Shown: piece after piece, positions 19,519-33,162 of the stretch
How positions within the stretch are numbered: the stretch's first letter is position 1
Layout of the letters: each line of letters begins with the position of its first letter
From: Acidobacteriaceae bacterium
Lineage (GTDB): Bacteria > Acidobacteriota > Terriglobia > Terriglobales > Acidobacteriaceae
DNA length: 64,000 nt
Assembly: GCA_003139095.1 (NCBI GenBank)
Contig: PLHW01000041.1
Location: 261 to 64,260 of the forward strand
Direction: 5' to 3'
Position numbers and translations under genes: made by a program
Notes under the pieces: model-generated
The model's database searches: none
What the model was told of the DNA's origin: nothing
The model's input: the letters and a program-made list of their open reading frames with translations, nothing else

Positions 19519-21291
19519 TCAGGAGGGGATTTCCCAGCCTTCATCCTTCATTTTCTGATTGGTCCAATGCTGTAATTCCTGGAAGAGGGCTGGCTCGATA
19601 ACGACGAAGCGCAAGCCGGCGCGGCCGCCGACATCGGCCCAGACCAGGCGTCCCTTGGCCTGAACCACCGTCTCGCTTTCGGGCAGAAGAAAGCTAACGT
19701 CGAGCATTCCAGCAAAGCCAACAGTATCGGTGACCGAATCGAGTCCCATCCCGCCGGTACTCAGATTCACTCCCTGAACCTGACGCTCCATGCCGTTCGC
19801 GTTGCGGAGGGTAACGGGCAAAGAGACTTTGGCGCGAAAGAATTTTTGCTGCTCCTGGCTGATCGTGCCGAGGGTGGGAGTTCCATCTCCGGTGGGCGAG
19901 TCGATGCCGTACTCGCGGAGCTTGCGGCTCAAGGTGCGGCGCGAGATGCCGAGTTGCTCAGCCGCCTGCGAGCGATGACCGCCGGTCTGTTCAAGCGCGC
20001 GGATAATCATCTGCTCTTCCATGTTTTCGAGATTGCCCTGCGGCAGGGCCGCTCTGACGACCGGCGTCGCGACACCCTCCTCCTGGAATTCGGCCGTCAC
20101 ATCGCCGGCGCCAATTTCGGAGTCGAGCGCGGCCATGGCGAGTTTCGCGACGAGGTTGCGAAGTTCGCGGATGTTGCCGGGCCAGAGATGAGACTGGAGC
20201 GCGGCGACTGCGTCGGCGGTGAAGGTTTTTTCCGGGGCTTTAAGGGAAAGAAAGTAACTGGCTAAGGCGGCGATATCTTCCGGGCGCTCGCGCAGGGGCG
20301 GGACGCGCAACTGAAACTGGCTGAGGCGGTGGAAGAGATCCTTGCGGAAGCGGCCTTCCTTGACCGCCAGATCGAGATCCTGATTGGTGGCGGCGACAAC
20401 GCGGACGTCGACCGTAATTTTGTTGTGACCGCCGAGGCGGTAGTAGGGCGCGCCGTCGAGCACGCGCAGCAACTTCACCTGGATCTGGGGCTGCAACTCT
20501 CCAATTTCGTCAAGGAAGATTGTGCTCTTGTCGGCGAGTTCGAATAATCCGGGCTTGGAGCAGTCGGCGCCGCTGAAGGCGCCTTTTTCGTAGCCAAACA
20601 GTTCGCTCTCGACCAGATGCTCGGGGAGCGCGGCGCAGTTGATATCGACGAGCGATTTTTTGCAGCGGTAGGAAGATTCGTGAATGGTGCGGGCGACCAA
20701 CTCCTTGCCGGTTCCAGTTTCTCCGGTGACGAGGACGGTTTCGGTGTGGCCGGCGACGCGGTCGACCATGCCCATGAACTTGTGCATCACGGGACTGGCG
20801 ATGAGGAACTCGGCGCCCTCGATGACCCGGCGAGCGATGGGAAAGGCGGCAACGCCGGCGCGTGCGGCACTGTGCGCGGGAATGCCGGGCTTGGGCGTTA
20901 TCTCGACGACAACCGCGGCCATGGCGGCGGGAATTGATGTGGCATCGCGCAGCAGCGAGAGACAAAGACGAAGCGGAAATTCCCCGCCCTGTTTCTTGCG
21001 GCCATGCAGGTTGGCTTCGCATCGGCCCTTGTCGCGAACGGCGGGCATGACCAGATTAGCGAGCACGGAACGATCTTCAAAGGAGAGCAATTCGGCGAGA
21101 CTCTTGCCGACCAGATCCTTCGCCTCGTAGCCGTAGCGGCTTACGCCGCCGTTGCAGCCAGTGATGAGGCCATCGAGGCTGAGGGTAAGAACGCACTCCT
21201 GCGCGGGCAGGGCAGGTTCGGGGTCGAGAACGCCGGTGCGATCGGGAGATTGAGAAGAGTTGCCACTGCTCGCTTTATAGCTTTTTTGCAT
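19519..21291 (-). CDS. sigma-54 transcriptional activator with PAS and C-terminal PilZ domains
   Basis: A 590-residue enhancer-binding protein. Domains are: PAS-like sensor (~30-135); AAA+ domain with Walker A GETGTGKE (~190), a variant sigma-54 loop GAFSGA (~237, normally GAFTGA), Walker B STIFLDEIGEL and the arginine-finger region; Fis-type helix-turn-helix (GGHRSQAAEQLGISRRTLSRK, ~425-450); and a PilZ-like c-di-GMP domain at the C-terminus (~475-580), whose RxxxR part is not obvious but whose NLSTGGMGL matches the family's D/NxSxxG motif. It would activate sigma-54 promoters in response to a PAS ligand or c-di-GMP. It is divergent from subtilase 1, whose upstream region contains a GG-N10-GC element. 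The ATG at 21291 was preferred to a GTG 30 nt upstream. Confidence 0.9.
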   Translation of the reverse strand: MQKSYKASSGNSSQSPDRTGVLDPEPALPAQECVLTLSLDGLITGCNGGVSRYGYEAKDLVGKSLAELLSFEDRSVLANLVMPAVRDKGRCEANLHGRKKQGGEFPLRLCLSLLRDATSIPAAMAAVVVEITPKPGIPAHSAARAGVAAFPIARRVIEGAEFLIASPVMHKFMGMVDRVAGHTETVLVTGETGTGKELVARTIHESSYRCKKSLVDINCAALPEHLVESELFGYEKGAFSGADCSKPGLFELADKSTIFLDEIGELQPQIQVKLLRVLDGAPYYRLGGHNKITVDVRVVAATNQDLDLAVKEGRFRKDLFHRLSQFQLRVPPLRERPEDIAALASYFLSLKAPEKTFTADAVAALQSHLWPGNIRELRNLVAKLAMAALDSEIGAGDVTAEFQEEGVATPVVRAALPQGNLENMEEQMIIRALEQTGGHRSQAAEQLGISRRTLSRKLREYGIDSPTGDGTPTLGTISQEQQKFFRAKVSLPVTLRNANGMERQVQGVNLSTGGMGLDSVTDTVGFAGMLDVSFLLPESETVVQAKGRLVWADVGGRAGLRFVVIEPALFQELQHWTNQKMKDEGWEIPS

Positions 21292-21545
21292 GGGCGGAAG
21301 CACGTCGAAGCTGAAGCGCACCGGTCATATCGAGGTCATGCAATGTTGCAACGCGAAGTAAAACGTTTGATTCACTTTATGAAGCGGCCGACGAGCCTAC
21401 AAGGTCCTTCGGCAATTTACGTACTAGCGGTAGCTTACTGATGCTGCCACAGGCTGGCCCGATGGTGAACCTATCGGGCAGGTGATGACCAAACCAAAGT
21501 AATGTCACGTGCGACGCGGGCCAAAATGTCGCGGCACGCCAAGTT

Positions 21546-21559: not shown

Positions 21560-21662
21560 TTGTGCAAGACTTTTCTGTCTGTTTCGATTCAAGCATTTCA
21601 GTGCGTGTCACTTTGGTGGGGGAGTTGCAGGAAGGAAGGCAGCAATTGGAGATGTGCGCTTT

Positions 21663-23441
21663 ATGAAAGCTAAGTCCTCGGTTGTTTTAGTTGTGTTCGC
21701 ATTGGCCGCGATGGCGGCCGCCAGCAATAACAAGCTTGCGCCGGAACTCCAGCAGTTGAAAGGCAGCGAGAGGCGAGACGTAATCGTGCAGTTCAAGACC
21801 CCCTTGACCGCAAAGCACCATCAGAGTGTGGTCAGGCGAGGCGGTGAACTGAGACAGGAATTGAAGGTAATTAGGGGCGCTGTGTATTCGGTGCCCAGTG
21901 CCATGCTGACTCGCTTGGCCGAGGATCCGGCTGTGGCGTACATCTCGCCTGATCGGCCTTTGAAAGGAGCCGGCATTTCCGCGGCAAGCACTCCCACGGC
22001 AACTACTTCTGCGGCAATCACTGCCGCGGCAACCCTGGATTACCACACCGATACGATAAACGCACCGTACGCCTGGGAATTGGGGTTGGATGGGACAGGA
22101 GTCGGAGTGGCCGTTCTAGACAGCGGGATTACCGATCTTGAAGACTTGCGCGGGAATGGCTACCGGGTTGTTTATAACCAGGACTTTGTGGGAGATGGCG
22201 ACCAAAGCGCTACTGACCTGTATGGTCATGGCAGCCATGTGGCGGGAATCATCGGAGGAGATGGCAAGAAGTCATCCGGTCCGCATGCGTTCTACACATT
22301 CGAGGGCATAGCGCCGAATGTAAATCTGATTAACCTGCGGGTTCTGGACCAAAACGGCGAAGGCACGGACAGCGGCGTGATTAGCGCGATCGAGGCCGCG
22401 ATCAGCCTGAAGGCCAAGTACAACATTCTGGTGGTGAACCTCTCGCTGGGGCGGCCAATTTATGAAAGCTATCTCTTAGACCCGCTTTGTCAGGCCGTGG
22501 AAGCCGCATATCAAGCCGGCATTGTGGTGGTCGTTTCGGCGGGCAACAACGGGCGGGACAACTCTTGGAATAACGACGGCTACGGGACAATTACAGCTCC
22601 GGGAAACGATCCATATGTGATCACGGTGGGCGCGATGAAGACCATGGGGACGCCGAGCCGCACCGACGACCTGATTGCCACCTACAGCTCGAAAGGCCCG
22701 ACGGCGATCGACCATATCGCTAAACCCGATCTGGTCGCGCCGGGAAACCTCATTATCTCTTTGTATAGCCCAGGGTCGCAGCTGGATCAGATGTACCCGA
22801 ACAATGAGATTCCGACGTCGCTGTACAAGACGAATGGCAACAACGCCCGATCGAACACGTATTACCTGCTGAGCGGCACCAGCATGGCGGCGCCGATGGT
22901 GAGCGGGACGGCGGCGTTGATGTTGCAACAGAATCCGGCGCTGTCGCCGGACCAAGTCAAGGCCGCGCTGATGAGAAGCGCGTCCAAGACTTTCCCGCTT
23001 TACAGCAGCTATACCGACCCAGCGACCGGAATTACCTACACCGATCAGTACGACGTGTTTACGGTTGGGGCGGGATACCTGGACATTGAAGCTGCTCTGG
23101 CGAATCAAGGCGTATTCAGCGGGGTGGCAACTTCGCCGATGGTTGCCTATGACCCGGTAACTCAAGGCGTGTACTTCGTGAACAACAGCTTTGCGGTATG
23201 GGGCGGTTCTGCGGACTGGAGCAGCTTTGCGGTATGGGGCGGGAACGCTTTTGTGGGCAGCGATTTTGCGGTGTGGGGAGGGTCGAGCGCGTGGGCCAGT
23301 TTTGCGGTGTGGGGCGGATCGGCGCCGTGGGGGGACAGCACCGACAACGGATTCTTCGCGGTGTGGGGCGGGAGCACGGTGGGGAGCGACAGTACCTCGA
23401 ACACCGAAAGCCTCGGCCTTCTGATTAACGGGGATAACTAA
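21663..23441 (+). CDS. secreted subtilisin-like S8 peptidase with FAVWGG repeats (subtilase 1)
   Basis: A 592-residue exported serine protease. It has a signal peptide (MKAKSSVVLVVFALAAMAA), an I9-like propeptide (~35-95, VIVQFKTPLT to YISPDRPL), and a catalytic domain with Asp ~153 (VAVLDSGITD), His ~189 (GHGSHVAG) and Ser in LSGTSMAAP. After the catalytic domain, the last ~95 residues carry five copies of FAVWGG separated by 6-12 Ser/Ala/Trp-rich residues. Such a tail could form a beta structure, or anchor or export the enzyme; its function is unknown to me. It is clearly paralogous to the subtilase at 30653-32392. The ATG at 21663 follows GGAG by ~11 nt. A strong hairpin follows the stop. 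Confidence 0.92.
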   Translation: MKAKSSVVLVVFALAAMAAASNNKLAPELQQLKGSERRDVIVQFKTPLTAKHHQSVVRRGGELRQELKVIRGAVYSVPSAMLTRLAEDPAVAYISPDRPLKGAGISAASTPTATTSAAITAAATLDYHTDTINAPYAWELGLDGTGVGVAVLDSGITDLEDLRGNGYRVVYNQDFVGDGDQSATDLYGHGSHVAGIIGGDGKKSSGPHAFYTFEGIAPNVNLINLRVLDQNGEGTDSGVISAIEAAISLKAKYNILVVNLSLGRPIYESYLLDPLCQAVEAAYQAGIVVVVSAGNNGRDNSWNNDGYGTITAPGNDPYVITVGAMKTMGTPSRTDDLIATYSSKGPTAIDHIAKPDLVAPGNLIISLYSPGSQLDQMYPNNEIPTSLYKTNGNNARSNTYYLLSGTSMAAPMVSGTAALMLQQNPALSPDQVKAALMRSASKTFPLYSSYTDPATGITYTDQYDVFTVGAGYLDIEAALANQGVFSGVATSPMVAYDPVTQGVYFVNNSFAVWGGSADWSSFAVWGGNAFVGSDFAVWGGSSAWASFAVWGGSAPWGDSTDNGFFAVWGGSTVGSDSTSNTESLGLLINGDN

Positions 23442-23450
23442 CGGGGAGCG

Positions 23451-23492
23451 AATCGGGCTGTCATCGCGGGTGATGGCAGCCCGATTTGGTTT
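23451..23492 (+). terminator. rho-independent-like terminator after subtilase 1
   Basis: A 15-bp stem (AATCGGGCTGTCATC / GATGGCAGCCCGATT, one G-T pair) with a 6-nt loop lies 10 nt after the stop codon and is followed by TGGTTT. The T-run is poor, but the stem is strong. It would separate subtilase 1 from the sensor operon. Confidence 0.65.
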
Positions 23493-23785
23493 CTGGCCGG
23501 AGCGCAGACTGACGACGGGCCGCGCGATTACTTCAGTAAGTACCGGAACTGATTTTTATTGCACTACCATGCGATATACGGGGAGAAGAGGCCTTTGGGC
23601 AGTCGCGGAAGGGACCGAGTTTGTCCCCGCGGATCGACTGAAGGACAAGTCAGAAGCATGGAGAAGGACGATTGAAGAGGTGGAAGTAGACAGAGGCAAC
23701 TGCGCACGCAAGCGAAGGTGAGCAAGCGATTCGCGGTGGGTTCAGACGGTTGCAGGGAGCAAGCGCAGAAGGCAAAGCACGATCT
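23493..23785. other. region upstream of the sensor/peptide-transport operon
   Basis: No gene is supported. The stretch should contain the promoter of the 23786-30422 operon. A TGGG-N11-GTTGCA resembles a -24/-12 element but has the wrong spacing. Nothing else was recognised. Confidence 0.4.
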
Positions 23786-26239
23786 ATGACCAGGCGGGCC
23801 ACGTTGTTCATCGGCGTAACAGCTGCCCTCGGTGTGTGGGTGCTGGGTCATGCCATGCTGCACTGGCAGAGCGCAAGCCTGCCGCGGTTTTTCTGTTATC
23901 TCCTGATCGCGGTTCTCGCCTCGTCACTCAAGATTCAATTACCGGGCATCGACGGGACGATGTCGGTAAATTTCCTGTTTATCCTGCTGGGCGTGCTCGA
24001 GATGAGTTTGCCCGAGACGCTCCTGATCGGGTGCACGGCGAGCCTGACGCAGTGCGTCTGGTCGGCGCGGAAAAGGCCGGATCCAGCCAAGGTTTTTTTC
24101 AATGTCTTTAGCATGATGGCGAATGCCATCGCGCTTTCCTATTTTGTCTTTCACCGGCTGGAAAGAGTGCTGGCTGCGAGCACGCCGTTACTGCTGGTGA
24201 TCACGGCGCTGATATTTTTCCTGGCCAATACACTGCCGGTTTCCGTCATCATTTCTTTGACCGAGGGCAAATCGCCGCGCAAGGTCTGGTCGGAATGCTA
24301 CTTCTGGTCCTTTCCGTATTACCTGGTGGGCGCGGCGGTGGTCTTCCTCGTCGACTTCGTCAATAAGCACACCGGATGGCAGACGACATTGCTCGTGCTG
24401 CCGGTGATCTATTGGGTCTACCGCTCCTACCGGCTTTACCTGGGACGCTTAGAAGCGGAAAAGATACACGTGGAGACGGAGAAGCGGCACGTGGAAGATG
24501 TTGCCAAACTCCACTTGCGAACGATTGAGGCGCTGGCGCTGGCGATCGAAGCGAAAGACCACACGACGCATAAGCATCTTCAGCGAGTGAGGGTGTACGC
24601 GTTGGCCATCGCGAGAGATCTGGATTTTTCGCCAGAGCAGATCGAGGCGCTGCGCGCGGCCGCGCTGCTGCACGACATCGGCAAGCTGGCCGTGCCGGAA
24701 CACATCATTAACAAGCCCGGACGGCTGACGCCGGAAGAATTCGAGAAGATGAAGATCCACCCGGTAGTGGGCTCCGAAATTCTGGAGCGCGTGGCGTTTC
24801 CGTATCCGGTTGCGCCCATTGTGCGATCGCACCACGAGCGGTGGGATGGCAGCGGCTATCCCGACGGGCTGAAGGGGGAACAGATTCCCCACGGGGCGCG
24901 GGTTTTGGCGGCAGTCGATTGCCTGGACGCGCTGGCTTCGCATCGCCAATATCGGCCGGCGCTGCCGCTCGACGACGCCATGAAAGAGGTCGCAAAATTA
25001 TCGGGCAAGTCATTCGATCCGGCGGTGGTCGCGATTCTGGAGCGCCGATATCGCGAACTGGAAGCGATGGCCCATTCTTCGGAAGGTACAGTGGAGCCCG
25101 GATTGTCGGTGCAGGTTCGGGTCGACCGGGGCGAAAGGCCAGCCGCCGGGTTCGAGCAAGGCTTGGCGGCGCCGACAACGAACGAGTCGGACTTTTTGTC
25201 GTCGATCGCATCCGCGCGCCAGGAAGCGCAGACAATGTTCGAGCTCAGCCAGGACTTGGGAAATTCGCTCAGCCTGGGCGAGACGCTTTCGGTGCTCTCG
25301 ATGCGGCTGCGCAAGCTCGTGCCTTACGATTCGATGGCCGTCTTTGTGTTGCGGGACGGTTTCCTGGTGCCGGAGCTGGTAAGCGGCGACAACTTCCGCC
25401 TCCTCTCTTCGCTGAAAATCGGGCCGGGAGAGGGAATCTGCGGGTGGGTCGCGGAGAACCGCAAGCCGATTGTGAACGGCGATCCGGCGATGGAGGCCGG
25501 GTACGCTCCCGATCCCGCTAAGATCACCACGCAGCGCTCCGTGCTGGCGGTGCCGCTCGATGGCCTGAACGGGGTGGTTGGAGTGCTGGCCATGTATCGC
25601 GCGGAACGGGACGCGTTTAACGCCGACCATTTGCGTATCCTGCTGGCCATCAGTTCGAAGATCGCGCTTTCCATGGAGAACGCTCTGAAGTATCAGCAGG
25701 CGGAGAATTCGGCGACCACCGATTACCTGACGGGTCTGCCGAATGCGCGGTCGTTGTTTGTGCATCTTTCGCGCGAATTGACGCGCTGCCGGCGTACGGG
25801 CACGTCGCTGGCGGTGATGGTGTGCGATGTCGACAATTTCAAACAGGTGAACGATCTTTACGGCCACCTGGAGGGCGACAACCTGCTGAAGGATTTTTCC
25901 GCGCAGCTGAAAGAATGCTGCCGCGGCTACGACTATGTTGCGCGCATGGGTGGCGACGAATTTGTGGTGGTCGCGCCGGGTCTGAACCCGGAGGCGAGCG
26001 GGGAAAAGGCCAGCCGTCTGAACGAACTGGCGATCGAAGCGGGGCGCAAGATTGCGGGCCGCAACCTGGTCTCTTTGAGCGTGGGCACCGCGTTCTGTCC
26101 GCAGGACGGTTTCGACGTGGAGCGCCTGCTGGCGGAAGCGGATCGCCGCATGTATTCGATGAAGCAGTTACACCATACCGAACCCGCTCCCGAGCCCGAG
26201 CTTCCCATTTCGCGCGCGCGCGGAGCGACCGTCAACTAG
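23786..26239 (+). CDS. polytopic sensor with HD-GYP, GAF and GGDEF domains
   Basis: An 817-residue inner-membrane c-di-GMP protein. Residues 1-220 form 7-8 membrane helices with the signature LPGIDGTMSVN, NTLPVS and FPYYLVG, shared with the protein at 32434-33162. An HD-GYP phosphodiesterase domain follows (~240-425) with HDIGK (~297) and HHERWDGSGYP (~349), both intact. Next is a GAF domain (~480-635) and a diguanylate cyclase domain (~645-800) with DYLTGLPN, intact GGDEF (~722) and an RxxD inhibitory site (RGYD, ~713). It can therefore be expected both to make and to degrade c-di-GMP. The ATG at 23786 was taken; a TTG 36 nt upstream is possible. Its stop is 10 nt from the permease gene, so it is the first gene of the peptide-transporter operon. 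Confidence 0.92.
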   Translation: MTRRATLFIGVTAALGVWVLGHAMLHWQSASLPRFFCYLLIAVLASSLKIQLPGIDGTMSVNFLFILLGVLEMSLPETLLIGCTASLTQCVWSARKRPDPAKVFFNVFSMMANAIALSYFVFHRLERVLAASTPLLLVITALIFFLANTLPVSVIISLTEGKSPRKVWSECYFWSFPYYLVGAAVVFLVDFVNKHTGWQTTLLVLPVIYWVYRSYRLYLGRLEAEKIHVETEKRHVEDVAKLHLRTIEALALAIEAKDHTTHKHLQRVRVYALAIARDLDFSPEQIEALRAAALLHDIGKLAVPEHIINKPGRLTPEEFEKMKIHPVVGSEILERVAFPYPVAPIVRSHHERWDGSGYPDGLKGEQIPHGARVLAAVDCLDALASHRQYRPALPLDDAMKEVAKLSGKSFDPAVVAILERRYRELEAMAHSSEGTVEPGLSVQVRVDRGERPAAGFEQGLAAPTTNESDFLSSIASARQEAQTMFELSQDLGNSLSLGETLSVLSMRLRKLVPYDSMAVFVLRDGFLVPELVSGDNFRLLSSLKIGPGEGICGWVAENRKPIVNGDPAMEAGYAPDPAKITTQRSVLAVPLDGLNGVVGVLAMYRAERDAFNADHLRILLAISSKIALSMENALKYQQAENSATTDYLTGLPNARSLFVHLSRELTRCRRTGTSLAVMVCDVDNFKQVNDLYGHLEGDNLLKDFSAQLKECCRGYDYVARMGGDEFVVVAPGLNPEASGEKASRLNELAIEAGRKIAGRNLVSLSVGTAFCPQDGFDVERLLAEADRRMYSMKQLHHTEPAPEPELPISRARGATVN

Positions 26240-26249
26240 GAATTTCCCG

Positions 26250-27113
26250 ATGCTGGGCAGAATCGCGCGTCACATTGCCTCGATTGCGGCACTGGTGCTG
26301 ATTGGCGGGCTGCTCTCGGCCACGCTCGTGCGGATGGCGCCCGGCTTCGATTCCGATGAGCGCGAACTCGATCCCAGCCTGAATGCGGAGAGCGTGCACG
26401 CGTTGCGGGCAGAGCACGCGGGGGAAAACAACATTCTCGCCTTTTACTCGGCTTACCTGCGTGGAGCGATGCACGGTGAGCTGGGCGTGTCGCATTCGCT
26501 GGGGCAACCCGTGAGCCGGCTGCTTGGCGAACGCTGGCCGGTGACGGTGCGTGTGGCGGGGATTGGACTCTTGCTGGGATGGGTCGCGGCGGCGCTTCTG
26601 GCCTTCGTCGGCTGCTTGTGGCAGCGGCCGCTCTACCACATTTTTGGCGGCGCCTTGAGCGGCGCATTCCTTTGCATTCCCGCGGCGGTCCTGGCGCTTG
26701 CGTCGGTGATTCTGAATGCGCCGGGTTATCTGGCCATCGCGTTCATCGTGTTTCCAAAGATCTACCGCTATTCCCGCAACCTGCTCGGCAAGTCGTATGC
26801 CCTGCCGCACATCACGGCGGCGCGCGCGCGGGGAGTCGGCGAAATGCGCATCCTGATCTGCCATGTCCTGCCGATCGCCGGACCGCAACTGATCGCGCTG
26901 GCGGGTATTACGGTGAGCCTGGCGCTGGGGGCGAGCATTCCAGTCGAGAGCCTGTGCGGATTGCCGGGAATCGGCCAACTGGCGTGGCAAGCTGCGCTTT
27001 CAAGAGACCTGCCGCTGCTGGTGAACCTGACGGTTCTGGTTACGCTTGTAACCTTGCTCGCGAACTCAGGGGCCGATGTAATGATCTGTATGACGAGGCC
27101 CCGGCAGGGATGA
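26250..27113 (+). CDS. oligopeptide ABC transporter permease, DppB type
   Basis: A 287-residue inner-membrane subunit with a first helix followed by a periplasmic loop, then five more helices. The EAA-type coupling loop is present (ITAARARGVGEMRIL). The segment SLALGASIPVESLCGLPGIG matches the family's EtvFxxPGlG region. It is slightly shorter than typical DppB (306-340 residues). It forms a heterodimer with the next gene product, whose ATG overlaps its TGA. Confidence 0.9.
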   Translation: MLGRIARHIASIAALVLIGGLLSATLVRMAPGFDSDERELDPSLNAESVHALRAEHAGENNILAFYSAYLRGAMHGELGVSHSLGQPVSRLLGERWPVTVRVAGIGLLLGWVAAALLAFVGCLWQRPLYHIFGGALSGAFLCIPAAVLALASVILNAPGYLAIAFIVFPKIYRYSRNLLGKSYALPHITAARARGVGEMRILICHVLPIAGPQLIALAGITVSLALGASIPVESLCGLPGIGQLAWQAALSRDLPLLVNLTVLVTLVTLLANSGADVMICMTRPRQG

Positions 27114-27916
27114 AAGCCGCGCGCGTGCTGGCGTGTGTGATCGTGGTCGCGGTGTGCGCGCTCTCGCTCTGCGCCAACTGGCTTGCGCCCGGGGGATACG
27201 CGAAGCAATTTCGTGAGGCGCCGGGCGCGCCGCCTTCGCGCGAACATCTTTTAGGAACCGACGAAGTAGGGCGCGATCGCTTTGCGCGCGTGCTGTATGG
27301 AACGCGCATCTCGCTTCTGCTCGCGCCAGCGGCCGCCCTGGTCTCAACGGCTTTGGCGGCACTGGTGGGAGGGCTCGCTGGGTACCTGGGGGGAATCTGG
27401 CTGAAGGTAGCGCGCGCTTTTACCGACTTGTTTCTTTCCCTGCCGTGGCTGTTTCTGCTGATCACGGTGCGCGCGCTTTTGCCGCTGAACGTTTCCCCGC
27501 TGAGCTCCGTGCTGATTACGTTTCTGATTCTTGGGTTGCTGGGTTGGGCCGCGTCGGCACGGGTGCTCTCGACGAGCGCCAATACGTTGCGGAATTCGGA
27601 CTTTGTTTTACAGGCGCGCGCGTCGGGAGCGCATGGGCCACGGCTATTTCTGATTCACGTTCTGCCTAACCTGAAGCCGGTTCTCTACGCCCAGTTCTGG
27701 ATTTCGATTCCCGTGTTCATTCTGAGCGAGGCGAATCTGGGCGTGCTTGGACTGGGCGTGGCGGAGCCCCTGCCGTCGTGGGGAAGCCTGTTGCGCGAAC
27801 TGGAAGGAATGCTTTCCTTCCGGGAAGAGCCGTGGCGGCTGGTGCCGCTGGGTTTGCTCATCGTCGTGCTTACGTCATTTCAACTTTTGCTAGAGAAAGA
27901 GGAGGTCACCGCATGA
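27110..27916 (+). CDS. oligopeptide ABC transporter permease, DppC type
   Basis: A 268-residue inner-membrane subunit with the DppC N-terminal signature HLLGTDEVGRDRFARVLYGTR and the coupling loop VLQARASGAHGPRLFLIH followed by LPNLKPVL. The C-terminal part has EANLGVLGLGVAEPLPSWG, typical of DppC/OppC. The start overlaps the dppB stop (ATGA), so translation is coupled, and its own stop overlaps the start of the binding-protein gene in the same way. Confidence 0.92.
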   Translation: MKAARVLACVIVVAVCALSLCANWLAPGGYAKQFREAPGAPPSREHLLGTDEVGRDRFARVLYGTRISLLLAPAAALVSTALAALVGGLAGYLGGIWLKVARAFTDLFLSLPWLFLLITVRALLPLNVSPLSSVLITFLILGLLGWAASARVLSTSANTLRNSDFVLQARASGAHGPRLFLIHVLPNLKPVLYAQFWISIPVFILSEANLGVLGLGVAEPLPSWGSLLRELEGMLSFREEPWRLVPLGLLIVVLTSFQLLLEKEEVTA

Positions 27917-29562
27917 TCGGCCGCCGAACGAAATTCCACTTTGTAATGTGCTTTGCACTTTTGTGCTGCGTTGGATCGATTGCGACGAACGCATGGGCGC
28001 AGAACGGCGGCGATCTGCGCTTCTGCGTACGCTCCGAACCGAAGACGTTCGATCCGCTGCTGGTGGATGACGACTCTTCGCTCTCCATCCGGTATCTGAC
28101 GGGCGGAGTCCTGGCGCGGGTCAACCGGCACACGCAGGAACTGGAGCCGGAACTTGCGGAATCGTGGAAGGTTTCGCCCGACAGCAAACAGATCACGTTC
28201 AAGCTGCGGCACGGGGTGCATTTCTCCGACGGCACGCCGTTTGCGGCCGACGATGTCGCTTTCACGGTACAACGTCTGATGGATCCGGCATTGCACTCGA
28301 ACACGGGAGACGCGTTCCGGTCGGGCAGCGGGGCGGTTACGACGAAGGTGATTGCGCCCGATCAGATTGCCATCACTTTTCCGGCGCCAGTAGTGGGGCT
28401 GGATCGGATGTTTGACGAGGTCGCGATCATGTCGGCGCACTCGGCGAAGAAGGAGGGCGCCGTGCTCGGCCCGTTTATGGTGGCCGAATACAAGCCGGGA
28501 TCAAGCGTGCGCCTGGAGCGCAATCCGTATTACTGGAAGAAAGACGCGCAGGGACGCCGCCTGCCGTACCTCGATTCCATTCATATCGATATTCAGGGAA
28601 ATCGCGATGTCGAGATGCTGCGCTTCAAACGCGGGGAAATCGATCTGATCAATGTGATCGATACCGATTATTTCGATCGGCTCGCGTCGAGTTCGCCACA
28701 ACTGGTGCACGATGCCGGACCTTCGCTCGATTCCGACTTTATGTGGTTCAACGAGGTGGGGAACGCGCCGATTCCGGAGTACAAGCGGGCATGGTTCGGG
28801 TCGGTAAATTTCCGGCGCGCGATTTCCGAGGCGATCAACCGCGACGATCTGGCGCGCATCGTTTACAACGGTCATGCGCAGCCCGCGGTCGGTCCGATTT
28901 CGCCGGCGAACAAATTCTGGTTCAACAGCCATCTGAAAGCCGAAGCGCACAACCCGCAGGGCGCGCTCGAACGATTGAAGGCGGACGGGTTCCACATGCA
29001 GAACGGAACACTCGTCGACAAGAGCGGCAACCAGGTTGAGTTTTCGATTGTCACGAATGCCGGTAGCAAGGCGCGGGAACGGATGAGCGTACTGATCCAG
29101 GAAGACCTCGGCAAAATCGGCATCAAGGTCAACCTGGTGCCGCTCGATTTTCCGTCGCTGATCGAGCGCATCACGCACACTTTCAATTACGAGGCCGCGA
29201 TGCTCGGCTTCCGCAACATCGATCTCGATCCGAATGGACAGATGAACATCTGGCTCAGTTCGGCATCGAATCACGCGTGGAACCCGGAGCAGAAATCTCC
29301 GGCAACCGCGTGGGAAGCGGAGATCGACAAATTGATGCGGGAACAGGCGTCGACGGCCGACCTGAAGAAACGCAAGCAGGCTTTCGATCGCGTGCAGGAG
29401 ATTGTCTACGAACAGGCGCCTCTTATTTACCTGATCAACCAGAATGCGTTGTCGGCGGTGTCGACCTCGGTTGCGGGCGCGAGTCCTGGAATCCTGTATC
29501 CACAGACGTTCTGGAACGCGGAGCGGCTGACGCTCAACGGGACGACGACGGCGAAACGCTGA
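27913..29562 (+). CDS. peptide-binding protein, SBP family 5 (DppA/OppA type)
   Basis: A 549-residue periplasmic solute-binding protein. The signal peptide (residues 1-29) ends in NAWA-Q and lacks a lipobox. Family features are FCVRSEPKTFDPLLVDD, LAESWKVSPDSKQITFKLR with GVHFSDGTPFAADDV, and NFRRAISEAINRDDLA. It would capture di- or oligopeptides and hand them to the permease pair. An AGGAGGT lies 7 nt before the ATG, the best SD of the operon, consistent with the high level needed for a binding protein. Gene order B-C-A is unusual, because the binding protein usually comes first. Confidence 0.93.
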   Translation: MIGRRTKFHFVMCFALLCCVGSIATNAWAQNGGDLRFCVRSEPKTFDPLLVDDDSSLSIRYLTGGVLARVNRHTQELEPELAESWKVSPDSKQITFKLRHGVHFSDGTPFAADDVAFTVQRLMDPALHSNTGDAFRSGSGAVTTKVIAPDQIAITFPAPVVGLDRMFDEVAIMSAHSAKKEGAVLGPFMVAEYKPGSSVRLERNPYYWKKDAQGRRLPYLDSIHIDIQGNRDVEMLRFKRGEIDLINVIDTDYFDRLASSSPQLVHDAGPSLDSDFMWFNEVGNAPIPEYKRAWFGSVNFRRAISEAINRDDLARIVYNGHAQPAVGPISPANKFWFNSHLKAEAHNPQGALERLKADGFHMQNGTLVDKSGNQVEFSIVTNAGSKARERMSVLIQEDLGKIGIKVNLVPLDFPSLIERITHTFNYEAAMLGFRNIDLDPNGQMNIWLSSASNHAWNPEQKSPATAWEAEIDKLMREQASTADLKKRKQAFDRVQEIVYEQAPLIYLINQNALSAVSTSVAGASPGILYPQTFWNAERLTLNGTTTAKR

Positions 29563-29570
29563 GAGCGGCG

Positions 29571-30422
29571 ATGACGGCGCATGCTCCTATTCCCGATGAC
29601 GCACCGAGCGTGCTGTCCGCTACGGTGACGGTGCGTTATCCGGACAAAGCGCCGGTGTTGCGCGGCTGCTCGATCGAGATTGGGCGCGGCGAGATCGTTG
29701 GCCTGGTGGGCCAGAGCGGCTCGGGCAAAAGCACTCTGGCGCTGGCCATCCTGGGATTGCTGGGGCGGCAACGCGCGACCATTGAGGGGAACGTTCAGTT
29801 TCAAGGGGCGGACCTGCTTAGGATGAGCGAGCGGGAGTTGCGCAAACTGCGCGGGCGCGCGCTCAGCCTGGTGCTGCAAAGCCCACTGGCATCGCTCAAT
29901 CCAGCTCTTAAGATTCGGACGCAACTGCGGGAGGCGTGGCGAATCCACCGTGACTCGGCCGCGGCCGACTGCCAGCTTGCCATTGAGCAGGCGCTCAGAA
30001 GCGTCAGCCTGCCGGCCGACGGCGATTTTCTTCAAAAGCACGCTTCGCAACTGAGCGTGGGGCAGGCGCAGCGCGTGCTGATTGCGATGGCTGTAATGCA
30101 CAGGCCCGCGCTCCTGATTGCCGACGAGGCGACGAGCGCGCTCGATGTCATCACGCAGTCGGAAATACTGCAACTGTTCGCGCAACTGAATCGCGACACC
30201 GGGATGTCGATCCTATACATCTCGCACGACCTGCCGTCGGTCGCGGGAATCTGCCAGCGGATTGCCATTTTGAACGAGGGCGAAATCGTGGAGAGCGGCT
30301 CGACCGAGCAAATCTTCGAGGCTCCGGTCCATCCTTACACACGCCGTTTGATGGCATCGCTACCTGCCATCCCAACTCGCTTCGAAGAGTCGCAAGCCAA
30401 GGCGCAAGCCGCCGCCCGCTGA
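29571..30422 (+). CDS. peptide ABC transporter ATPase, DppD/OppD type
   Basis: A 283-residue ATPase with Walker A GQSGSGKST, Q-loop LVLQSPLASLNP, Walker B LLIADEATSALD, the switch His in SHDLPSV, and the peptide-family C-terminus (PVHPYTRRLMASLP). The signature is LSVGQAQR in place of LSGGQxQR. Typical peptide importers have two ATPases (D and F); only one is encoded here, so it would work as a homodimer or borrow a partner. It starts 8 nt after the binding-protein stop and closes the operon. A 7-bp hairpin (CGGGACA-ACT-TGTCCCG, 30506-30522) follows. Confidence 0.9.
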   Translation: MTAHAPIPDDAPSVLSATVTVRYPDKAPVLRGCSIEIGRGEIVGLVGQSGSGKSTLALAILGLLGRQRATIEGNVQFQGADLLRMSERELRKLRGRALSLVLQSPLASLNPALKIRTQLREAWRIHRDSAAADCQLAIEQALRSVSLPADGDFLQKHASQLSVGQAQRVLIAMAVMHRPALLIADEATSALDVITQSEILQLFAQLNRDTGMSILYISHDLPSVAGICQRIAILNEGEIVESGSTEQIFEAPVHPYTRRLMASLPAIPTRFEESQAKAQAAAR

Positions 30423-30583
30423 CGAGTCCTTCCTCCTTTCGGACCCTCGGAAACAGCTGGTTCATTCACCTGAGAAATGGGCGGATTGGCCCAACCCATG
30501 GGCAACGGGACAACTTGTCCCGGCCCTCCACGAATTGTGAGCGGCGCCCCCTGAAATAAAAGGAGTTAATGGCGGGCTAGGAA

Positions 30584-30597
30584 GGAACTGCGCTTGC
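30584..30597 (+). promoter_or_regulatory. candidate sigma-54 promoter of subtilase 2
   Basis: AGGAAC then TTGCA, with GG (30584-30585) and GC (30596-30597) separated by exactly 10 nt. The -12 half TTGCA is a perfect match; the -24 half keeps GG and AC. The predicted start near 30609 gives a ~45-nt leader with GGAG before the ATG at 30653. Confidence 0.45.
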
Positions 30598-30652
30598 AAT
30601 GTTTAGCGCAGGTGCACCTCTATCGACATCGAGGTGTGCGGAGAATGAAATT

Positions 30653-32392
30653 ATGAAGCAAATGACCAAAGTAACCGCCGTGTTTCGGTGCTTGGCCTTA
30701 GCCGGGATGATGCTCGCAGCGGCGACGGCATGGGGATCAGGCGGGAGCAAGGGAACATCCAGCAAGCTCTCCCCCGACTTGGCAGCAGTGCCACAGGGCA
30801 AGACGGTGAATGTGATCGTTCAGTACTCGGCATTGACTCAACACGATATTTCCCAGGCTCAGAGTGTGGCGCTGCGGGGAACGGCGCCGAAGACTTTCCC
30901 GCTGATCCAGGCGGTCGCGCTCACGATGAACTCCAGCAAACTGGCGAGCCTGGTGAGCGATCCTCACGTCAAGCACATTTCGCTTGACCATCAGGTTTTC
31001 AACACGTCGACGACAACCGATTTCTACGATCAGGCCGTGAACGCGCCGTACGCGTGGTCGGCTGGCCTGGACGGGAGCGGGATCGGCGTAGCGATCATCG
31101 ACAGCGGTGTTGCCGACCAAGGCGACTTTACGGGGACGAATGCATCACGCATCGTTTATAGCGCGAACTACAACAACGACGGAATCAACAATGCCTTTGG
31201 CCACGGGACGCACGTGGCGGGCATTCTGGCCGGCGACGGAGAGAACTCGACAGGGCCGAACTATACGAAGACCTTCAAAGGAATTGCGCCAAACGCAAAT
31301 TTGCTCAGCTTCCGGGTGCTGGATGGAATCGGCGTCGGCACGGACAGCAGCGTGATTGCGGGCATTCAGGCGGCGGTGAGCCTGAAGTCCACTTACAACA
31401 TTCGCGTCATGAACATCTCTCTGGGGCGGCCGGTATTCGAAAGCTATACGGTCGATCCGCTATGCCAGGCGGTGGAAGCGGCGTGGAAAGCGGGGATCGT
31501 GGTCGTTGCCGCGGCGGGCAATGACGGACGCGACAATTCTTTTGGCACGAATGGATATGAAACGATTGCGGCGCCCGGGAACGATCCCTATGTCATCACG
31601 GTCGGCGCCATGAAACCGATGGGGACCGCGACCCGCGCGGACGATCTGATTGCGAGTTATAGCTCGAAGGGGCCAACAGCGGTCGACCACATCGCGAAAC
31701 CGGATCTGGTCGCTCCCGGCAACCTGATTGTATCGACCTTGGCATCGACGAGCGCTGCGATTTTCTCGATGTTTCCGCAGGATCAGGTTCCGATGAATTA
31801 CTACAGCACGTCGGGGGGCAGTGCGCCTTCGTCGACTTACTTCATTCTGAGTGGCACGAGCATGGCGACGCCGGTGGTTAGCGGAGCGGCGGCGCTCTTA
31901 CTCCAGCAAAACCCAAAGCTGACACCGGATCAGGTGAAGGCACGGCTGATGCTAACTGCATATAAGACTTTTCCGAAATCGAGCACGGCGGTCGATCCGG
32001 TGACGGGCATTTCGTACACGGATTATTACGACATGTTCACGGTTGGGGCTGGGTACGTCGACATTCAGGCGGCGCTCTCCAACACACAACTCGCCTCGTC
32101 CAAGGTTACCGCTCAGTCGCCAGCAGTCGCAGTCGACAAGAGTAAGAATGTATACGTAGTGACTAACTCCTCCGTGGTTTGGGGCACCTCGGGTACTTGG
32201 GCTACCTCGGTGGTCTGGGGCACTTCGGTGGTTTCGCTGAGTCAGCAGGAAACGGTCGTATTAGGATCCTCGGTGGTCTGGGGAACACCCTCCGATACTG
32301 GATACAGCGTGGTGTGGGGAACGTCCGCACCGCAGTCCAACCTGGTGGCACAAGCCGATGCGGCAACCGTCACCTATTTTGGAGAGAACTAG
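30653..32392 (+). CDS. secreted subtilisin-like S8 peptidase with SVVWGT repeats (subtilase 2)
   Basis: A 579-residue paralogue of subtilase 1. It has a signal peptide (residues 1-~28), a propeptide, and a catalytic triad in VAIIDSGVAD, GHGTHVAG and LSGTSMATP. Long identical stretches with subtilase 1, such as KPDLVAPGNLI and GNDPYVITVGAMK, show recent duplication. The C-terminal ~80 residues contain four SVVWGT units. In subtilase 1 the same position has FAVWGG, so the two tails diverged within their repeats while keeping V-W-G. The ATG at 30653 was chosen over a start 54 nt upstream because GGAG precedes it by ~9 nt and the signal peptide begins there. The sensor-domain gene follows after 41 bp without a terminator. 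Confidence 0.92.
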   Translation: MKQMTKVTAVFRCLALAGMMLAAATAWGSGGSKGTSSKLSPDLAAVPQGKTVNVIVQYSALTQHDISQAQSVALRGTAPKTFPLIQAVALTMNSSKLASLVSDPHVKHISLDHQVFNTSTTTDFYDQAVNAPYAWSAGLDGSGIGVAIIDSGVADQGDFTGTNASRIVYSANYNNDGINNAFGHGTHVAGILAGDGENSTGPNYTKTFKGIAPNANLLSFRVLDGIGVGTDSSVIAGIQAAVSLKSTYNIRVMNISLGRPVFESYTVDPLCQAVEAAWKAGIVVVAAAGNDGRDNSFGTNGYETIAAPGNDPYVITVGAMKPMGTATRADDLIASYSSKGPTAVDHIAKPDLVAPGNLIVSTLASTSAAIFSMFPQDQVPMNYYSTSGGSAPSSTYFILSGTSMATPVVSGAAALLLQQNPKLTPDQVKARLMLTAYKTFPKSSTAVDPVTGISYTDYYDMFTVGAGYVDIQAALSNTQLASSKVTAQSPAVAVDKSKNVYVVTNSSVVWGTSGTWATSVVWGTSVVSLSQQETVVLGSSVVWGTPSDTGYSVVWGTSAPQSNLVAQADAATVTYFGEN

Positions 32393-32433
32393 TATCCAGC
32401 ATCGACCGGACATCGATACGAGGATCACTGCAT

Positions 32434-33162
32434 ATGAAAAACTCACGCCTCGCAACCGCATTCATAACCACGATCACGATGGGCGGGCTTGCAATGCTGG
32501 GGGGCAGCGTACTGAAGATGAATGCCCTGCATGGACACGAGTTCGTGGCCCTGCTGATTCTGGGCGCCATTACGTCGCGCACCAAGGTCAAGTTGCCCGG
32601 CCTGGACGGCACAATGTCGGTGAATCTGCCGTTCATGCTGATTGCAGCCGCTCAATTGAGCCTGTTTGAAACCGTAACCGTGGCGCTGGTTTCCGCAACG
32701 TTGCAGAGCATTCCGAAACGCGGCGGCCAGTTGCAGCCTGTGAAAATGTTGTTTAACGCCAGCACCGTCGTGCTGGCGGCGGGAGTGGCAGCCCTGCTGT
32801 TGCATAGTGAAAAGTTGATTGGCCTTCACTCCGGATCAATGGCGCTGATGGCGGCGTGTAGCATGTTTTTCCTGGTGAATACCTTGCCCGTCGCGACCAT
32901 CATCGCCATTACCGAAGGATCAGGGATGATGAAAATCTGGTCGAGTATCGCGCACCTGTCGTTTCCGTACTATGTGGCGTGTACGGGAGTGACCTCGATG
33001 GTGACGGCGGCCAGTCAACGAGTGGGATGGCAGGCTCCGCTGGCCGTTCTTCCAGTCATGTTGCTGTTGTACCTCTCTTATCAGAAATACTTCCGACAGA
33101 ACACGGAGGAGGGACAACTCGTGCCGGCGACGGCACGGGCACGAGCGGCGGGGGCTCACTAA
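32434..33162 (+). CDS. polytopic membrane protein, stand-alone copy of the HD-GYP protein's sensor domain
   Basis: A 242-residue protein with 7-8 membrane segments. It repeats the landmarks of the N-terminal sensor domain encoded at 23786: LPGLDGTMSVN, FFLVNTLPV, LSFPYY and GWQAPLAVLPV. The cytoplasmic HD-GYP, GAF and GGDEF output is missing and the protein ends in a short polar tail. It probably senses the same signal or pairs with the longer protein, or it regulates or serves the protease encoded 41 bp upstream. I know no named family for this domain. Confidence 0.85.
   Translation: MKNSRLATAFITTITMGGLAMLGGSVLKMNALHGHEFVALLILGAITSRTKVKLPGLDGTMSVNLPFMLIAAAQLSLFETVTVALVSATLQSIPKRGGQLQPVKMLFNASTVVLAAGVAALLLHSEKLIGLHSGSMALMAACSMFFLVNTLPVATIIAITEGSGMMKIWSSIAHLSFPYYVACTGVTSMVTAASQRVGWQAPLAVLPVMLLLYLSYQKYFRQNTEEGQLVPATARARAAGAH

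Follow-up and report, generated by a model that had tools for sequence, protein, structure and literature searches.

A stretch of 64,000 nucleotides (nt) from the genome of an Acidobacteriaceae bacterium (assembly GCA_003139095.1, contig PLHW01000041.1, positions 261-64,260), hereafter the window, whose numbering is used for all its features, contains a block of genes in which two exported subtilases of the S8 peptidase family are each followed, on the same strand, by a protein with a membrane domain related to the Pfam family MASE9. A peptide importer of the Opp type, domains of cyclic di-guanosine monophosphate (c-di-GMP) signalling and a sigma-54 activator are encoded in the same block, and the pairing of protease and membrane domain, which is conserved in the Acidobacteriota, looks like an undescribed extracellular sensing system. 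The block consists of the following genes:

19519..21321, minus strand: regulator with PAS, sigma-54 AAA+ activator, Fis-type helix-turn-helix (HTH) and C-terminal PilZ domains, divergent from the block (Pfam)
21654..23441, plus strand: S8a, exported subtilase with a propeptide region and C-terminal FAVWGG-type repeats, ending in GDN (Pfam)
23786..26239, plus strand (ATG 23786): unit 1 sensor, MASE9-like helices followed by HD-GYP, GAF and GGDEF (Pfam)
26250..27113, plus strand: oppB-type permease (Pfam BPD_transp_1, E 5.2e-13)
27110..27916, plus strand: oppC-type permease (Pfam BPD_transp_1, E 2.2e-14; start codon by reading)
27913..29562, plus strand: oppA-type peptide-binding protein (Pfam SBP_bac_5, E 5.3e-75; start codon by reading)
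29571..30422, plus strand: oppD/F-type ATPase, one only (Pfam ABC_tran, E 3.7e-26; oligo_HPY, E 2.1e-7; start codon by reading)
30653..32392, plus strand: S8b, exported subtilase with a propeptide region and C-terminal SVVWGT-type repeats, ending in GEN (Pfam)
32434..33162, plus strand (ATG 32434): unit 2, stand-alone MASE9 membrane protein with an S-component-like predicted fold (Pfam, AlphaFold)

The gene content on which the original prediction was built stands in full. Both subtilases match Pfam Peptidase_S8 (E 2e-54 for S8a, 1e-51 for S8b), and the membrane domains behind them are homologous (33% identity, E 1.5e-36). In unit 1 the domain is fused to HD-GYP, GAF and GGDEF (HD_5, E 3.5e-39; GAF_2, 1.8e-14; GGDEF, 1.2e-39), in a protein that heads the importer genes oppB, oppC, oppA and a single oppD/F type, and in unit 2 it stands alone, from ATG 32434 to 33162. 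Unit 2 belongs to MASE9 (PF20972; E 9.6e-8, 32.6 bits, cut-off 24.3), and the unit 1 domain, taken alone, falls below that cut-off (E 0.0062, 16.9 bits). S8a starts at GTG 21654 or ATG 21663 and ends at 23441; the stop codon of S8b is 42 nt from the unit 2 ATG, and a longer frame from 32179 merely overlaps S8b. By eye, the catalytic D, H and S motifs of both subtilases are intact, as are the HD/GYP, GGDEF and RxxD motifs of the unit 1 sensor, with proteolysis and c-di-GMP turnover as the predicted activities. The regulator matches Sigma54_activat (E 2.5e-63), HTH_8 (4e-17), PilZ (6.4e-9) and PAS_9 (3.9e-7).

The strongest evidence for the pair comes from its recurrence. Within the GTDB family of the window, the membrane domain is present in 66 of 150 genomes, in 127 rows that were joined with the 150 S8 rows listed, out of more than 150. 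Rows in an open frame shorter than 360 amino acids (aa) were counted as stand-alone; there were 42. Six of these were left out of the count: two run into a contig edge, two are fragments below 75 aa, one has internal stops, and the sixth is the gene on G093:C35. All 36 remaining intact genes lie directly downstream of a subtilase gene on the same strand, 34 by coordinates and two by an S8 tail visible at the contig edge, a count that ignores the kinship of the genomes. The median distance from the S8 stop to the start of the stand-alone gene is 32 nt (37 pairs, with starts chosen by rule). At about four subtilases per 5.5 Mb, a same-strand S8 gene within 2 kb upstream would be expected for well under 1% of genes. 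A second genome collection, which partly overlaps the 150-genome set, was searched by a profile scan of genome contigs and gave 57 loci, all in Acidobacteriota, with a subtilase directly upstream on the same strand for 54 of the 57 matched proteins. The other three are L185 and L204, both at a contig edge (the L204 match being multi-domain), and L201, where a multi-domain protein was matched whose divergent S8 neighbour is 1.8 kb off, in a locus that also holds a stand-alone pair. The association of the sensor domain with S8 peptidases in other genomes, which the original prediction proposed to look for, was thereby found, and the earlier observation is confirmed and is stronger than first put. 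Chance adjacency of the two genes was considered and rejected on these two counts and the class-wide rows given below. The gene set aside on G093:C35 (L108) encodes a MASE9 protein cut at its 3' end by the contig edge; it directly follows OppA and OppD genes on its strand and no S8 gene, a gene order unlike that of the pairs.

In the genome of the window itself, four such domains were found at E 1 or better, three of them directly downstream of an S8 gene, and the third of these pairs, on contig C9, consists of a subtilase and a stand-alone MASE9 protein. Two other loci of this genome were read. At G000:C5 58529-59227 (L013) the unit 1 sensor has a paralogue, which carries HD-GYP, GAF and GGDEF-like sequence and has no subtilase in its vicinity, and several rows of the family, each about 940 aa long and with no S8 gene listed, may be its orthologues; at G000:C50 269760-270656 (L015) lies a fourth tailed subtilase, with no MASE9 in the stretch read and a homologue of the sigma-54 activator about 2 kb off.

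Multi-domain forms of the protein are more loosely arranged. Among 85 such rows in the family, an S8 gene lies within 2 kb in 22 (17 divergent, 5 upstream on the same strand) and within 12 kb in a further 15. The output carried by the domain beside the subtilase varies: it is HD-GYP-GAF-GGDEF in the window and L123, HD-GYP-GAF in L133 and L369, GGDEF in L365, a PAS-histidine kinase in L284 and L366, a PAS-kinase-receiver in L290 and L371, and nothing at all where MASE9 stands alone (in L133, L290 and L366 the domain was called by our own profile and not by Pfam at E 0.001). Such a combination, in which input domain and neighbouring partner stay constant and the output changes, would be expected of a sensor paired with the source of its signal.

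The wider block recurs as well. The regulator, MASE9-HD-GYP, at least one opp gene and S8 were found together, by eye, in 20 of 84 sequences (part of the window, three loci of its own genome and 80 family loci), many of which are short or were picked for the S8 or stand-alone gene alone; a stand-alone MASE9 gene often joins these 20 loci, and gene orientation varies. An S8 gene upstream of the HD-GYP sensor gene is absent in the two same-genus loci read, L075 and L088, and recurs in L121, L122, L128 and L301-L303, the last three from family f10, in which S8 lies directly upstream of MASE9-HD-GYP-oppB-oppC, the arrangement of unit 1. Of 20 loci from other families of the class, 19 contain both S8 and MASE9 and 12 contain opp genes; 19 of the 20 (all but L300), like 11 of 20 phylum loci, were picked for proximity of S8 and MASE9 and therefore show the arrangement and not its frequency. 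Across 299 genomes of the class, a tailed S8 (E 1e-120) occurs in 68, MASE9 (E 1e-10) in 102, and both in 62 (Fisher P 1e-29, ignoring kinship). Outside the window's family, 44 of 97 class S8 rows lie within 2.5 kb of a MASE9 row among the MASE9 matches listed, and 49 of 117 listed MASE9 rows within 2.5 kb of an S8 row. In the phylum outside the family, a listed S8 row was found within 2.5 kb of 11 of the 42 Pfam MASE9 rows (joined by eye), and five of nine further loci picked by S8 score have an adjoining MASE9 gene (L366, L373-L376).

Structure prediction offers a clue to what the membrane domain may do. The AlphaFold model of unit 2, from a 29-sequence alignment, has a predicted local distance difference test score (pLDDT) of 90.6 and a predicted template modelling score (pTM) of 0.86. 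In a Foldseek search of the PDB, its first ten matches are chains or S-components of energy-coupling factor (ECF) vitamin transporters (RibU, FolT, BioY, ThiT), nine by title and one, 4huq, which we take to be an ECF S-component chain. These matches have E-values of 0.013-0.22, probabilities of 0.97-1.00 (nine at 1.00, one at 0.97) and template modelling (TM) scores of 0.50-0.67 by target and 0.39-0.51 by query, and the eleventh match drops to a probability of 0.18. In the portion of PMC11109136 (Partipilo and Slotboom) drawn on here, the S-component fold is that of a ligand binder, an AXXXA motif docks S-components onto the ECF module, and the 5TMR-LYT receptors combine the fold with an extra N-terminal helix and no AXXXA; pyruvate sensors are among the receptors with this fold. 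In the unit 2 model a helix (residues 4-27) precedes the S-component-like core, and AXXXA is absent from the helix before the LPG motif, taken as helix 1, in 28 of 34 sequences and present in six; neither window copy has it in helix 1 or in the first 30 residues. As a helix precedes the core and AXXXA is mostly missing from the presumed helix 1, we read the modelled MASE9 domain as a receptor and not a transporter subunit.

The most distinctive part of the system is the tail of the protease. Subtilases of the class end in tandem hexapeptides with the consensus S-(V/A)-(V/I/L)-W-G-(S/T/N) (153 proteins, 1030 tryptophan-glycine (WG) repeats), the WG motifs being spaced by 6 residues in 507 cases, 12 in 182 and 18 in 44. 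Beyond the class several lineages carry arrays of their own (GIIWSD, VFWTD, ALWSD, ILWGD, TATWGD, GYLWAD, and GIMLSD without tryptophan). Within arrays the repeat units have a median amino-acid identity of 0.68 (157 arrays), and synonymous differences between them are close to saturation (medians of 0.65 observed and 0.66 expected), also in the 29 arrays above 0.8 identity (0.63 and 0.67). Since the residues are largely conserved and the synonymous codons vary as they would by random choice, the tail is selected as a peptide in most arrays and is not just the product of recent slippage. Some arrays are young, which speaks against such selection in them (L366, 0.11 observed and 0.52 expected; L367, 0.19 and 0.63), and those of the window are intermediate (S8a, 0.40 and 0.67; S8b, 0.53 and 0.70). 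A structured tail is not supported for S8b, in whose AlphaFold model (38-sequence alignment, mean pLDDT 70.5) residues 507-579 fall below pLDDT 50. Of 140 distinct subtilases, 78 end in G-E/D-N/Q/K or DEQ. A WG motif also occurs close to the N-terminus of 46, and in 31 of these it takes the form RHSAAWGK and lies just ahead of the signal peptide's hydrophobic stretch; the N-terminal WG match of S8b sits instead at the end of its signal peptide. A search of the window's genome for a wider set of WG-repeat proteins clearly matched S8b and the subtilases of C50 and C9, S8a at E 0.7, and one more at E 0.96. How far the repeat can drift is seen in L379 (4072-6354, minus strand), with GIMLSD repeats, no tryptophan and no MASE9 in the stretch read, and in L369 (4728-6686), with GPTAS repeats, no tryptophan and MASE9-HD-GYP directly downstream.

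Sites resembling sigma-54 promoters are concentrated upstream of the subtilases. A site was counted if, within 300 nt upstream of a start chosen by rule, a -24/-12 pattern matched in 9 or more of its 12 positions, with GG and GC held invariant. Such a site was found for 30 of 71 S8 genes, compared with 28 of 261 other open reading frames (ORFs) in the same loci, 12.6% of random windows and, on the reverse complement, 6 of those 71 S8 regions; stand-alone MASE9 genes have one in 2 of 38 cases. Of the 30 S8 sites, 17 lie at -100 to -50. At 10 of 12 positions the counts are 10/71 for S8 and 7/261 for other ORFs. S8 genes outside this first set gave 14/33 against 28/262 (P 2e-5), with 4/33 on the reverse complement; as three of the 14 sites are identical, this set includes near relatives. 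In the window, sites of 9/12 lie at -49 for S8a and -70 for S8b. An earlier scan of stop-to-stop frames over up to 830 nt had found a site of at least 10 in 15 of 76 S8 regions (about 5 expected) and in 1 of 39 sensor regions, and comparison with plain shuffles gave 28/69 S8 regions against a mean of 5.5 in the shuffles, a weaker control than the ORF and reverse-complement comparisons. The putative sites fit an operon of subtilase and stand-alone MASE9 started by a sigma-54 activator. Homologues of the activator adjoin the block in other loci, including those of other families of the class, and PilZ was seen in six of ten activators scanned (five over the Pfam cut-off, L121 just under), all six from the window's family.

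These findings can be combined, from genes and models, into a proposal to which we give about an even chance: that the block is an extracellular sensing system of exported protease and cognate receptor with a c-di-GMP readout. The sigma-54 activator would drive the subtilase operon from a sigma-54 promoter, and the exported subtilase would act outside the cytoplasm. Peptides made by it, from other proteins or from its own tail, would be bound by the MASE9 domains, and binding would alter either the turnover of c-di-GMP, made by GGDEF and broken down by HD-GYP, or kinase output. The c-di-GMP could feed back on the PilZ activator, and the importer could bring the peptides into the cell, either as food or as a way of switching the signal off. 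Coupling through the products of proteolysis, suggested from the outset, is something we infer; the MASE9 kinship, the S-component-like predicted fold, the PilZ sigma-54 activator, the swapping of outputs and the hexapeptide tail go beyond the original prediction. The stand-alone MASE9 protein is most likely made together with the protease as its partner, binding either the protease tail or the same ligand and so tuning or localising the signal. A narrower and rather speculative version, which as a whole we regard as improbable though worth stating, makes the subtilase its own pheromone precursor: it would trim its disordered tail into lineage-specific hexapeptides, receptors of S-component fold would read these and set c-di-GMP, the PilZ sigma-54 activator would make more protease, and the Opp importer would clear the peptides.

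A number of observations weigh against the sensing proposal. No S8 gene lies within 12 kb, among the S8 rows listed, for 48 of the 85 multi-domain rows of the family, so that strict association belongs to the stand-alone form; the pair of the original prediction is conserved and often near importer and c-di-GMP domains, and is not strict beyond that form. In the window's own genome the C5 domain (HD-GYP-GAF-GGDEF) has no adjoining S8 gene, and outside the family 68 of 117 listed MASE9 rows lack one within 2.5 kb; given these rows and the 48 within the family, the domain can apparently work without the protease. Many pairs of S8 and stand-alone gene (e.g. L087, L091-L106) have no importer gene in the stretch read. 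Four of the nine phylum loci picked by S8 score lack an adjacent MASE9 gene (L372, L377-L379), including those with regular TATWGD, GYLWAD and GIMLSD arrays, and in seven phylum loci that do have the pair (L362-L364, L373-L376) the tails contain WG but are looser and form no hexamer array. Most sigma-54-like sites score 9-10 of 12, and multi-domain sensor genes have them too (8/39). PilZ was found in none of the four activators scanned from outside the family; as it was seen in family activators, feedback through PilZ may be peculiar to the window's family. The Foldseek E-values are weak (best 0.013, with TM by query of 0.39-0.51), and a MASE9 sequence profile had no match among PDB sequences to E 10, hence none to S-components, for which reasons the modelled likeness to ECF S-components is a fold resemblance and not a family assignment; AXXXA also occurs within the first 30 residues in 15 of 34 sequences. 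Co-variation of repeats and MASE9 was not taken as evidence, being positive and unspecific: given the S8 catalytic domain, the partial Mantel r is 0.32 (p 0.001, 108 pairs), and the same test gives 0.28 for the S8 propeptide, 0.26 for MASE9 given the propeptide and 0.21 for the propeptide given MASE9 (98 pairs). In multi-domain pairs (n=24) it gives 0.15 for MASE9 given HD-GYP (p 0.028) and 0.10 for HD-GYP given MASE9 (p 0.12).

Much of the same evidence could be accommodated by a scavenging module, a possibility of some substance that we nevertheless hold to be less than probable, in which the subtilases digest outside protein, the importer takes up the peptides, MASE9 senses amino acids or peptides, c-di-GMP switches a regulon and the tail is a tether without a message. 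The importer is of the ordinary Opp type, the S8b tail, which the model leaves disordered and in which tryptophan and valine abound, suits a tether, and receptors with the S-component fold include pyruvate sensors (PMC11109136, in the portion drawn on). Scavenging leaves unexplained why, in all 36 cases, a stand-alone receptor-like gene should come immediately after the protease gene, and why arrays differ between lineages (GIIWSD, VFWTD, ILWGD, TATWGD, GYLWAD, GIMLSD). The tight gene order, with S8 first, would also suit a stand-alone MASE9 protein that is a membrane anchor, export helper or immunity protein binding the WG repeats, with the fused forms sensing anchor occupancy, and the N-terminal WG motif of 46 of 140 subtilases (31 RHSAAWGK) suggests a partner that recognises the motif. 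We consider this unlikely: for 46 of the 97 S8 rows from outside the family, the matches listed include no MASE9 on that contig (the contigs being short), a count that also tells against the sensing proposal and by which an anchor in cis is seemingly not required, and S-component folds are those of ligand binders in the same portion of PMC11109136. That the adjacency is no more than inherited gene order, with no functional coupling, draws on the facts that all loci read come from one phylum and that related genomes are not independent. It is very improbable, as adjacency stays while orientation varies and outputs change, and the pair occurs in many families.

The sensing system proposed here has partial parallels elsewhere. 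In the Phr/Opp peptide quorum sensing of Bacillus, an exported protease is combined with import by Opp; an exported subtilase, a peptide importer and a regulator likewise share one circuit here, whereas the candidate peptide is a tandem array within the protease and the receptor would be a membrane protein predicted to fold like an S-component. Yeast alpha-factor-like precursors carry several copies of one short peptide in each secreted precursor, a feature shared by the tails; unlike them, the present system is bacterial, and its precursor would be the protease itself. Also close are the 5TMR-LYT kinases (YpdA, BtsS, KinB), which in the portion of PMC11109136 drawn on are alike in the S-component fold with an extra N-terminal helix, predicted here, and in fusions to GGDEF, PAS, GAF or kinase outputs. 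They differ in that 5TMR-LYT (PF07694) is absent among the Pfam matches of either window sensor at E 1, in the tie of the stand-alone form to a subtilase gene and in the HD-GYP output; the terms 'MASE' and 'HD-GYP' are absent from the main text of PMC11109136. For Pfam MASE9 (PF20972), to which the stand-alone domain belongs by its score, the S8 association is newly reported here. In the open-licence literature covered, the name MASE9 led to colorectal cancer only and to nothing on this domain system. As the original prediction had it, no system of this arrangement is described in the open-licence literature covered, on MASE domains, S-component sensors, repeat motifs and Acidobacteria proteases, peptide pheromones or c-di-GMP, and no peptide signalling system for Acidobacteriota was found there.

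To our knowledge no ligand has been reported for MASE9, and the block would give it a candidate that can be synthesised and tested. It would also extend the link between vitamin-transporter fold and receptor to a second family, one tied to c-di-GMP, and it presents a protease with tandem hexapeptides that are under selection as peptide. Acidobacteriota are among the commonest soil bacteria, and were the subtilase indeed its own pheromone precursor, the block would represent a phylum-wide system of cell-to-cell signalling.

Two further arrangements were seen beside the tailed subtilases. At L286 (2194-3681, minus strand), a single frame of 495 aa with two tandem MASE9 matches lies directly downstream of a tailed subtilase. 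In family f10 (L301 2482-4956, L302 2909-5347, L303 7995-10433 on the minus strand), the sigma-54 activator and the subtilase are separated by a protein with M50 peptidase and HlyD domains (Pfam, L301 and L302 frames), a possible partner in export or processing.

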